In this document: in pieces, positions 4,068 through 6,261 of the stretch
Layout of the letters: every line of letters begins with the position of its first letter
Numbering within the stretch: position 1 is the first letter of the stretch
The notes under the pieces: generated by a model
The model's input: only the letters and a program-made list of their open reading frames with translations
Database searches by the model: none
Told to the model about the DNA's origin: nothing
DNA from: Bacteroidota bacterium
Lineage (GTDB): Bacteria; Bacteroidota; Bacteroidia; Cytophagales; Cyclobacteriaceae
Length of the DNA stretch: 64,000 nt
Assembly: GCA_018266055.1 (NCBI GenBank)
Contig: JAFDYT010000019.1
Coordinates: forward strand, 124,001 to 188,000
Reading direction: 5' to 3'
Position numbers and translations under genes: made by a program

Positions 4068-5147
4068 TTACTTCAATTTCTCAAGACTATCCACGAGAAG
4101 CTCGTACTGCTCGCGCGAGTGCGCTGGGAAATTGGCAAACCGAAGCTGCGTTTTTTTCAATTCGCCGTAGCCATCGCCCGGGCTCATGCCCAGTTCTGTC
4201 AGATAGTTGGTGATCTTACCCACATGTTCACCGCAATCAGCCACAATAACCGTTTTTGACTGCGCATTTTTATCCTTTACGAACGGAGAAAGGAGAGGGT
4301 GGTTTTCGAGCAGGTTGCAAAGAATGGCTGCTTTGTACTCTGTTTCCTTTCGTAAGGATTGAATTCCCCTGCGCAGAAAATCTTCGACCACTTTTGAGAG
4401 AAGATAAATGCCAAGCACATTGGGTGTTTCGGGTGTTTGGTTCTTCTTAGCGTTTTGAAGGTAAAACGGAATAGAATGGTAGGTACCGATTTTCTTCCCG
4501 TCTGACAAAAGTTTCTCAGCTTTGGCCACACAGCGATCATTCACCACCCACACGCCAAGCCCGGCCGGCAAACCAAATCCTTTTTGTACAGAAAAGAAAA
4601 CGGAATCGACTTTAGTATAATCAAACGAAGGGTAGGGCAGCGACGACACGGCGTCTACAACAATCAGTGCCTCAGGGTTTGATGTTCTGTATTGATTGAT
4701 GAACTCTTGCGTCAGTGAAACGCCTGTGCTGGTTTCGTTATGAGTGAGTCCGATCATTTCGGTGCCAGCAGGAACGGATACGCTGTCTCCAAATGATTGA
4801 CCCAACGGAACGGCGTGCTTCTCAGAATTTTTGCCCAGCAGCACAGCAATCTCATAAAAGCGGCTGGAGAAGGCTCCATTCACCAGGTGAAAGGATTTTT
4901 CGGATACAAGATTCTGAACCGAACGTTCCCAGATTTCGGTGGCCGAAGCGGCAAAGAAAATATGAAAGCCGGCGGGGATGCCGAGCAATTCCTTTAAGCC
5001 GTCTGTGGCGCTTTTGAAAATCGCTTCAAACTCTTTGGTACGATGACCAAGGGACGGAATTCCATCGCGGAAAGCCTGGCGCATGTGATCTTCAACCGTG
5101 AAATAAATCTGCGACGGACCGGCCGCGAAGGTGACAGTAGGTTTCAT
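4068..5147 (-). CDS. Class V aminotransferase, phosphoserine aminotransferase-like
   Basis: A PLP-dependent fold-type I enzyme of 359 residues resembling SerC-type phosphoserine aminotransferases. Visible marks are the N-terminal FAAGPSQIY, the PLP-contacting HNETSTG, the aspartate in VVDAVSS and the Schiff-base lysine in SVQKGFGLPAGLGVW. The ATG at 5145-5147 is preferred over an upstream in-frame codon because it begins directly with the conserved GP region and lies just 10 bases behind a good promoter. The sequence differs from the commonest Bacteroidota SerC (NFNAGP type), so substrate assignment to 3-phosphohydroxypyruvate is plausible but not certain; an alanine-glyoxylate type enzyme is the alternative. 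Confidence 0.82.
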   Translation of the reverse strand: MKPTVTFAAGPSQIYFTVEDHMRQAFRDGIPSLGHRTKEFEAIFKSATDGLKELLGIPAGFHIFFAASATEIWERSVQNLVSEKSFHLVNGAFSSRFYEIAVLLGKNSEKHAVPLGQSFGDSVSVPAGTEMIGLTHNETSTGVSLTQEFINQYRTSNPEALIVVDAVSSLPYPSFDYTKVDSVFFSVQKGFGLPAGLGVWVVNDRCVAKAEKLLSDGKKIGTYHSIPFYLQNAKKNQTPETPNVLGIYLLSKVVEDFLRRGIQSLRKETEYKAAILCNLLENHPLLSPFVKDKNAQSKTVIVADCGEHVGKITNYLTELGMSPGDGYGELKKTQLRFANFPAHSREQYELLVDSLEKLK

Positions 5148-5156
5148 AATTATGCT

Positions 5157-5188
5157 CAAAGCTATCGGTAAACTCAACTTTTTACAAA
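5157..5188 (-). promoter_or_regulatory. Bacteroidota-type promoter for the aminotransferase gene
   Basis: Read on the minus strand there is TTTG (5188-5185), a 20-base spacer and TAGCTTTG (5164-5157), matching the -33/-7 consensus TTTG-N19-21-TAnnTTTG of this phylum. The expected start of transcription near 5151 leaves a leader of only about five bases before the ATG at 5147. Confidence 0.65.
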
Positions 5189-5208
5189 CCCAATTTTCAT
5201 TCTTACAG

Positions 5209-5244
5209 TTTTGTAAAAATGAAATCGGCAATTGCTTATCTTTG
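5209..5244 (+). promoter_or_regulatory. Promoter of the 6S-like RNA
   Basis: TATCTTTG at 5237-5244 matches the -7 box TAnnTTTG exactly. The nearest upstream TTTTG (5209-5213) is 23 bases away, slightly longer than ideal. The expected transcription start, about 5250, falls just before the closing stem of the RNA. Confidence 0.5.
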
Positions 5245-5249
5245 TATCA

Positions 5250-5466
5250 ATAATTCCCACTCGGATTTGGGACACGTTTGCTGAACCTAACAATTGTTAC
5301 AATACCGGGTTAAGCTTTTTTCTAAAATCAGGCCTCATACTGACGGAAACGTCAGTACCTCGCCCTAAAAGCAGGTTAACAGTGGAAGATTGCGGAAACC
5401 GGCAGCCCAAAACTTGTCTTCATGGGGTTCAGAAACCACCACCAAGTCCAGTGGGTTTTATTTTTG
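5250..5466 (+). ncRNA. ssrS: Structured RNA, probable 6S RNA (6S-Flavo-like)
   Basis: A gene-free interval that folds as one long rod. The ends pair: 5256-5261 with 5450-5455, and 5263-5270 with 5442-5449, with only C5262 bulged, giving a 14-pair closing stem. Further in, CTGAACC (5281-5287) pairs with GGTTCAG (5426-5432), extended by UUU/AAA across a one-base bulge. A perfect eight-pair hairpin with a GAAA loop lies at 5338-5357. The 3' end runs straight into TTTTATTTTT, as in an intrinsic terminator, and a matching promoter precedes the 5' end. Length, rod shape and closing stem fit 6S RNA, which sequesters RNA polymerase; signatures of tmRNA, RNase P RNA and SRP RNA are absent. The structure is seen; the 6S identity is inferred. 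Confidence 0.6.
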
Positions 5467-6261
5467 CAGGCTCTTTAGTTTTTGTTCGGTGAGCTTTCGT
5501 TTCGTGTCGAGCGGAAAATCGCCATTCATCATCCAATCGTAATAGGCGGGCTCTTCTTTAAATACTTTGTGAACGAGTTTGCCTTTGTGTTTTCCAAAAT
5601 TGAATATCACTTCGCCTTTTTCATTTCGCACCATGCGTCCGGCCAAGTCCACCAGGTCGTCACTCACCAGTTTGGCGAGCGCCTCCATGTCGTTTTTGAT
5701 TTGCCCAATCTTCCGTTCCAGGCTATCGGTTACAGGCTGGCCATCGTACTTCTCAATCTGTGCAAGCAGCACTTCCATCGAAGCTTGTGTATCGGCCTCG
5801 GCGGAATGCGCATTTTCCATCTCGCGGTTGCAGTAAAATTTATACGCTGCCGCCAGCGTGCGCTTCTCCATCAGGTGAAAGATGCGCTGCGAATCAATGA
5901 TCTTTTTACGGCTGTAATCAAACTCCACATCGGCGCGAAGAAATTCTTCCACGAGCATCGGTACGTCGAACTTCAATACGTTAAAGCCGGCCAGATCGCA
6001 GCCTTCCATAAAGCGGGCGTAGTCTTTAGCCACTTCTTTGAAGACCGGCTTGTCTTTTACCTGCTCGTTGGTAATTCCATGAATTGCGGTGGACTCCGGT
6101 AAGATAGGAATCGTCGGGTTCAGGATATTGCTCTTGCGAATGATCTCTCCATTCGGCATTACTTTTATCACAGCAATTTCGATGATCCGATCGTGTGCAA
6201 TATTCACCCCCGTGGTTTCAAGATCAAAAAAGCAAAGCGGAATCTTCAGGCTAAGTTTCAT
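5458..6261 (-). CDS. 3'-5' exonuclease, DnaQ/DEDDh family
   Basis: A 267-residue exonuclease of the DNA polymerase III epsilon type. Exo I is FFDLETTGVNIAHDRIIEIA with the catalytic Asp and Glu; Exo II is seen in LAGFNVLKFDVPMLVEEF; Exo III is NAHSAEADTQASMEVL, carrying the His and Asp of DEDDh. After the nuclease domain (about residues 8-170) comes a C-terminal part with FNFGKHKGKLVHKVF and YYDWMMNGDFP, the short domain that often follows this nuclease in Bacteroidota. The stop codon lies in the T-run at the 3' end of the convergent 6S-like RNA. It is 24 bases downstream of the Mur-like gene. Probably DNA repair or proofreading-related. Confidence 0.92.
   Translation of the reverse strand: MKLSLKIPLCFFDLETTGVNIAHDRIIEIAVIKVMPNGEIIRKSNILNPTIPILPESTAIHGITNEQVKDKPVFKEVAKDYARFMEGCDLAGFNVLKFDVPMLVEEFLRADVEFDYSRKKIIDSQRIFHLMEKRTLAAAYKFYCNREMENAHSAEADTQASMEVLLAQIEKYDGQPVTDSLERKIGQIKNDMEALAKLVSDDLVDLAGRMVRNEKGEVIFNFGKHKGKLVHKVFKEEPAYYDWMMNGDFPLDTKRKLTEQKLKSLQK

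Follow-up and report, generated by a model that had tools for sequence, protein, structure and literature searches.

A diverged rod-shaped RNA, very probably the 6S RNA of a Chryseolinea-like bacterium of the Cytophagales

Introduction

Does a gene-free interval in the genome of a Chryseolinea-like Cytophagales bacterium hold the 6S RNA of this organism, as a sequence-only reading had proposed from its rod-like fold? The interval lies in a 64,000-nucleotide stretch of contig JAFDYT010000019.1 (referred to as the window; all positions are counted from its first letter). Few regulators of bacterial RNA polymerase are as widespread as 6S RNA. Its rod mimics an open promoter and keeps the holoenzyme occupied until the polymerase, copying the 5′ side of the bubble, sets the RNA free (PMC8876501). 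Within the Bacteroidota, 6S RNA and pRNAs of Bacteroides were detected by dRNA-seq (PMC7366714), and Flavobacterium psychrophilum has likewise been found to make a 6S RNA (PMC9723704); these loci may correspond to the Rfam families RF01693 (Bacteroidales-1) and RF01685 (6S-Flavo), respectively. No earlier report of a 6S RNA in Cytophagales or Cyclobacteriaceae was found in the literature searched; Wehner et al. (2014) may list copies.

The analysis below leaves us confident that the rod-shaped RNA of ∼210 nt is the 6S RNA gene of this bacterium. The element is an ordinary type of molecule that has diverged beyond what the standard RNA family library reports.

Results

Location and Secondary Structure of the RNA

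The predicted 6S-like transcript (5250..5466, + strand, running from about 5248-5252 to the U-run) was delimited by its fold and by its matches to RF01685 and to the genus model R1 (see below). It is located between two minus-strand genes named by the look of their translations, a divergent serC-like gene (ORF 4068-5231, start about 5148) and a converging 3′-5′ exonuclease-like gene (5458-6261). Judged from the sequence and the list of open reading frames, the interval contains no plausible gene, as had been claimed, and the 86-aa frame at 5232-5492 is mechanical. A protein-coding reading was rejected, given that the core lengths of the relatives fall into all three classes modulo 3 and that in 24 of the 29 genus sequences no open + strand frame spans the core.

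The folding energy of the RNA was −70.1 kcal/mol, against a mean of −51.5 kcal/mol (sd 4.87) for dinucleotide shuffles (z −3.82), and none of the 200 shuffled sequences folded as well. The stems described in the sequence-only reading were recovered. The outer stem appears in the centroid as 6 + 8 = 14 pairs with one bulged C, and AUAA/UUAU pairing is added at its very end. The inner stem of seven pairs (CUGAACC, 5281-5287, with GGUUCAG, 5426-5432) is found in the centroid as well as in the relatives' consensus; the minimum-energy fold of the single sequence pairs part of this stretch and of the middle otherwise than the centroid does.

From the 5′ end, the RNA is composed of the 5′ arm of the terminal stem (5250..5275, placed by the centroid and by duplex energies in 29 sequences), the 5′ strand of the inner closing helix (GUUUGCUGAACCU, 5276..5288), the 5′ side of the central bubble (AACAAUUGUUACAAUACC, 5289..5306, from the consensus structure) and the 5′ strand of the helix above the bubble (GGGU, 5307..5310). 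The apex carries a hypervariable hairpin (5338..5357), which in the window copy is the perfect GAAA hairpin reported earlier, UACUGACG-GAAA-CGUCAGUA, and which covaries and differs in length among relatives; it is followed by a second hairpin, CCUCGC...GCAGG (5358..5375), with 100% of cells paired in the 29-sequence alignment. The descending side consists of the 3′ strand of the helix above the bubble (5405..5408, paired with 5307-5310 in the covariation alignment), the 3′ side of the bubble (5409..5424), the 3′ strand of the inner closing helix (GGGUUCAGAAAC, 5425..5436, paired with 5276-5288 on the basis of the genus alignment and covariation) and the 3′ arm of the terminal stem (5437..5466). 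This last arm faces the 5′ arm from about 5250 and ends, as noted before, in a U-run (5456-5465, with one A inside), likely an intrinsic terminator. Inside the bubble, a short helix ACAA/UUGU (5299-5302 with 5414-5417) is predicted, and it hardly varies in the genus. All of these parts lie on the + strand. Fold, consensus and duplex energies thus agree with a rod of ∼200 nt that has a closing stem, a central bubble and an apical arm, the features that define the 6S class in PMC8876501.

Conservation and Covariation Within the Genus

A BLASTN search detected the RNA in 35 of the 36 genomes of the genus, counting its own, and in none of 22 genomes from other families of the order. Thirty of the 35 genus loci were taken, and 29 sequences, the window copy among them, were aligned without structural guidance (alignment A1); one locus, L029, escaped the anchor search and is therefore absent from it, and R1 scores this locus at 117.6 bits. 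RNAalifold placed 42 pairs on the 29 sequences. The sequence-only reading had counted a lack of compensatory changes in aligned relatives, along with a lack of covariance hits, against its proposal; such changes proved abundant, with 14 of the 42 pairs showing at least one sequence changed on both sides in the genus, and with further changes in the phylum-wide alignment described below. Paired cells amounted to 97.6%, compared with 91.5% when partners were shuffled and 25-47% when partners were slid by 1-3 columns; the covariation score was 0.240, compared with 0.122 (shuffled) and at most 0.085 (slid).

The clearest compensation was observed in the first apical hairpin, where 4/4 counted pairs changed on both sides, and in the helix above the bubble (GGG/CCC to GAG/CUC), in which one pair is A-U in 17 sequences, G-C in 11 and G-U in 1. 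The inner closing helix showed 99.7% of cells paired and little variation within the genus. The outer stem lies outside the genus covariation alignment, and the duplex energy of its arms averaged −26.1 kcal/mol in the 29 sequences (range −31.1 to −21.4), compared with a mean of −8.6 and a lowest value of −19.3 kcal/mol for shuffled arms. With mononucleotide shuffles, z was below −2 in 28 of the 29 RNAs of the genus set. In one relative (L030:1531-1705), the second apical hairpin is drawn out by an insertion to a long stem with almost perfect pairing, which demonstrates this helix in a natural variant.

Searches With Rfam Models

The cmscan search that the sequence-only reading had named as a check, with the 6S, 6S-Flavo and Bacteroidales-1 models at curated thresholds, turned out negative, and the gathering-level Rfam scan of the whole window matched no family. 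In sensitive mode (601 bases, 4227 families, E<=10), only two matches were obtained. The best was RF01685 6S-Flavo, which matched over its full length at 5285-5430 on the + strand with 27.3 bits and E 0.09, below its gathering score of 85; the other was a microRNA model outside the element (15.5 bits; gathering 101). RF01693 (gathering score 60) did not match at the window even in sensitive mode. RF00013, the 6S family of Proteobacteria, Firmicutes and others, shares with the window RNA a length of ∼200 nt, a closing stem, a central bubble and an apical arm (PMC8876501), but it differs in that its model (gathering 46.4 bits) had no match in the whole genome at E<=0.001; as a control, this model matched in 5 of 14 control genomes.

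RF01685 matched nothing in the genome of the window at E<=0.001, and the control genomes were silent too, so this negative alone shows nothing. At the curated cut-off it was silent in all 194 genomes of the order. Weak RF01685 matches (E<=1), which were not used as a guide, numbered 13 in these 194 genomes. One fell on an R1 locus, in the relative G002, where it is the one listed whole-genome match (E 0.026) and lies at the orthologous locus; in two genomes (G178, G206) RF01685 and R1 match different places, and the other 10 genomes had no R1 match. When 20 R1 loci were scanned in sensitive mode, RF01685 matched at none and RF01693 at six, with 24.5-35.2 bits. The RNA is homologous to 6S-Flavo, and it is not a member of that family as Rfam curates it.

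Reciprocal Matches With the Genus Model R1

R1 is a covariance model built from the 29 genus sequences alone. In the genome of the window it gave a single match (G000:C10:129276-129436, equivalent to window 5276-5436) with E 9.6e-34, the window copy being part of the model. In 296 genomes of the phylum, RF01685 identified 36 loci, 12 of them above the cut-off, and 29 genomes of family f26, presumably Flavobacteriaceae, were matched. Thirty of the 36 loci were taken first, and R1 matched all 30 at the same place and on the same strand (E 1.8e-7 to 0.023); with two loci added later (L202, L203) the count is 30 of 32. The two that R1 missed score 49.3 and 49.8 bits with RF01685, equal to L103, which R1 found. 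One locus (L079) carried an extra R1 match on the opposite strand. When R1 was run blind on the 296 genomes (E<=0.1), 28 matches were returned, 8 in its own family, 18 in f26 and 2 elsewhere, and all 18 in f26 fall on RF01685 loci.

RF01693 carries the Rfam text '6S-Bacteroidales RNA suggested'. Its model gave 21 matches in the 296 genomes at E<=0.1. Two were over the cut-off (166.6 and 184.4 bits), and R1 matched at both of these loci, at one with 27.7 bits (E 3.2e-4) and at the other weakly (16.3 bits, E 0.12). Below the cut-off, 14 matches fell on RF01685 loci and three on own-family R1 loci (in G070, G085 and G126). At the loci of the remaining two, L211 and L212 (in G311 and G346), R1 had no match on re-scoring. 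The two blind R1 matches elsewhere, in distant members of the phylum (L117 and L118, in G284 and G437), are weak, at 28.3 and 28.2 bits with a GC of 0.61, possibly arose by chance and are not claimed as copies; none of L117, L118, L211 and L212 has a gathering-level Rfam match.

These crossed matches make a single homologous group the best reading of RF01685, RF01693 and the RNAs behind R1. The sensitive search and the reciprocal matches to both Bacteroidota 6S families support the 6S identity that the sequence-only reading had proposed from size and shape, and the element as a homologue of both families that the Rfam cut-offs miss; homology to the RNAs taken as the 6S of the phylum was thus found. 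In a phylum-wide alignment of 38 R1-aligned copies (A5; without L079, L082, L083, L088, L201-L203, L211, L212, L117 and L118), 38 of the 42 pairs changed on both sides, compared with 13-20 when partners were slid, and 90.9% of cells were paired, compared with 28-46%, in an alignment that follows the model and is biased towards it. All 12 pairs of the inner closing helix changed on both sides in this model-fitted alignment.

The likeness extends to particular motifs. 6S-Flavo (described in PMC2864571) has the same inner closing helix as the window RNA. Its 5′ bubble motif is similar (CUCAAC; CCUAACA in the window RNA), the 3′ bubble motif CAAAACUUGUC is identical in the 6S-Flavo locus L097 and the window, and the models of the two RNAs match each other at identical places. 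6S-Flavo differs in its short apex and, at the f26 loci, in having no TAnnTTTG at the equivalent place. Bacteroidales-1 resembles the window RNA in its sub-threshold matches at loci of family mates, its two apical hairpins and the shared 3′ bubble motif. Over window 5408-5417 this motif reads C-(A/U)-A-A-(A/U)-C-N-U-G-U, and C5408, A5410, A5411, C5413, U5415, G5416 and U5417 are invariant across nine aligned copies (window, Cytophagales, flavobacterial type and Bacteroidales type). The idea that the motif copies the −7 box TAnnTTTG was considered and is not claimed, its sequence support being weak since the copies keep C-N-U-G where the box has T-T-T-G.

The reading that survives best beside a 6S RNA is a conserved structured sRNA of the Cytophagales that descended from 6S RNA, or resembles it, and took on another role, for instance as a base-pairing regulator or as the binding partner of a protein at the conserved apical junction. 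Scores below every Rfam gathering score and an apical junction among the most conserved parts of the molecule speak for it; whole-genome matches at exactly the positions of two independent 6S families, together with the shared bubble motif, speak against it. R1 finds one copy in the genome, so a changed function would leave the genome without a 6S RNA visible to these searches. We regard such a role as improbable and retain the 6S RNA as the preferred reading.

Strand and Neighboring Genes

A second reading would place the element on the minus strand, as a cis-acting leader of the serC-like gene. This gene is the divergent neighbor in 30/30 loci (L001-L030) and in 68 of 76 named contigs, and it also lies beside the RNA in the sister genus g23 (L046, L048). 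Moreover, the minus strand folds better than most shuffles (z −2.13; 5 of 200 shuffles as good), and the terminator pattern scan placed two minus-strand sites inside the element. The genus alignment, however, contains 86 G.U cells and 8 A.C cells, which fits the + strand only, and the RNA is therefore assigned to that strand; the promoter box, the U-run and the 6S-Flavo match all lie on it as well. In addition, serC was not found within about 1.5 kb in the same-genus L049, nor in L050-L123 (the family genera g24-g27 and other families), except for a 46-aa stretch of 35% in L055. A leader would be a structured RNA on the serC strand with serC beside it wherever the RNA occurs, which is not what was found. 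Because the G.U cells point to the + strand and serC was not found to accompany the RNA beyond the genus and g23, we reject this reading as very improbable and keep to a + strand 6S RNA.

Promoter and Terminator Signals

The −7 box upstream of the RNA that had been pointed out earlier was confirmed by direct reading: TATCTTTG (5237..5244, + strand) is of the Bacteroidota sigma-A type. A TTTG at 5210-5213 could, we presume, be the −33 element. In PMC9723704, the −7 box consensus of Bacteroidota sigma-A is given as TAnnTTTG. Among 75 genus-like loci with distinct cores, TAnnTTTG occurs 30-70 nt upstream of the core in 43, compared with 1.8 expected from shuffles, and 39 of these 43 boxes lie at 34-39 nt. 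Among 26 further A2 loci, mostly from other genera or families, the box was found in nine (0.9 expected). A U-run within 60 nt downstream of the core was present in 73 of the 75 loci (36.3 expected from shuffles) and in 26/26 of the further A2 loci (16.8 expected). Two loci are outside this tally, L073 (18.9 bits) and L183 (cut off). On the + strand, the pattern scan returned no terminator here; its short-loop pattern excludes a stem closed by the whole RNA.

At the equivalent place, TAnnTTTG was found in 0/30 6S-Flavo loci of family f26 (L074-L102 and L103). In L074-L102, many loci show, upstream of the RNA, a conserved GTTCTTTAcAtA / GTTCTTTAAAATA stretch instead. We take this stretch to resemble a boxA antitermination element. 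It may reflect a different promoter or a longer 6S precursor in that family.

Distribution in the Order

In the order, strong R1 copies were found in 29 of 194 genomes. The own family is represented by 16/16 genomes among those listed, two of which (the genome of the window and G002) are in the model, and the other 13 genomes belong to families f6, f16, f17 and f19. A thirtieth match (E 0.88) was not counted; each carrier genome has one match at E<=1, and R1 had no match in 164 of the 194 genomes. Among named genomes, a pattern scan picked out 76 contigs, all of which R1 matches (76/76, one cut off by a contig end). The carriers include Chryseolinea, Ohtaekwangia, Chryseotalea, Pseudochryseolinea, Chryseosolibacter, Dawidia and Parachryseolinea, with the cultivated species Chryseolinea serpens and Ohtaekwangia koreensis among them, and they put the window in this group of Cytophagales or close to it. 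Full-length copies were also observed in MAGs labeled 'uncultured Bacteroides sp.' (L153, 174.7 bits) and 'uncultured Chitinophaga sp.' (L192, 178.5 bits); these score among the best, so the metagenome labels may be loose. That the element is a chance inverted repeat or an unexpressed relic is scarcely credible in view of the covariation, the conserved promoter and terminator signals and the presence in 16/16 listed family genomes.

Structure of the Apex

The apex of the window RNA spans 61 nt and carries two hairpins, whereas 20-41 nt lie between the flanking columns in 12/12 flavobacterial-type copies. In A5, both apical hairpins are represented by letters in all 25 Cytophagales copies, and in five f19 copies the second hairpin has them for 3 or 4 of its 5 pairs; none of the 12 flavobacterial-type copies has letters for either hairpin, and in the Bacteroidales copy L200 the first hairpin has letters. 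The strands of the apical junction are among the most conserved parts in Cytophagales. A two-hairpin apex unique to Cytophagales was considered and rejected, as the Bacteroidales-1 model also draws two apical hairpins, with three pairs each and thus shorter than those of the window. The two-hairpin apex is common to Cytophagales and Bacteroidales, and it was reduced, or never gained, in flavobacteria.

A wider proposal is put forward only tentatively, and we think it rather less likely than its negation: a single Bacteroidota 6S superfamily, split and partly missed by Rfam, in which Cytophagales and Bacteroidales would keep an apical module that is reduced in flavobacteria. Its conserved strands (AAAAUCAGGCCUCA, CCUCGCCC and UAACAGUGGAAG in the window) would hold two hairpins, the first free to vary, and the module would offer RNA polymerase or a partner protein a second point of contact in addition to the promoter-like bubble.

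Discussion

We infer from homology that the RNA is expressed, binds RNA polymerase and directs pRNA synthesis from the start point given here. In the proposed mechanism, the sigma-A promoter TATCTTTG would drive transcription from near 5250 as far as the U-run near 5465. With its long closing stem, its bubble (5289-5306 / 5409-5424) and its apical arm, the rod could pass for an open promoter. It would then sequester the sigma-A holoenzyme and reduce housekeeping transcription as nutrients become exhausted. When growth resumes, the polymerase would take the 5′ side of the bubble as a template, and the 5′ strand at 5276..5288 is likely the template of the pRNA. The pRNA is predicted to begin opposite U5288, at about nucleotide 39-40, to open with AGGUUCAG and to read AGGUUCAGCAAAC, as placed by position; nt 40 of B. 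subtilis 6S-1 (PMC8876501) agrees with this start. The template is conserved, and 27 of 29 relatives would give AGGUUCAGCAAAC. As the pRNA is made, the inner closing helix would come apart and the enzyme would be released. A candidate release hairpin in the 3′ bubble (A1 columns 150-155 with 172-178) was predicted in 0/29 sequences, whether the template was blocked or not, so release may take another route; this hairpin is of the E. coli type and not universal (PMC8876501).

The locus supplies a covariance-ready alignment in an order where 6S-Flavo stays silent across 194 genomes at its cut-off. It links 6S-Flavo and Bacteroidales-1 as one group and maps the copies in part of the Cytophagales. 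It also offers a direct test of a 6S RNA working with the unusual sigma-A promoters of the phylum.
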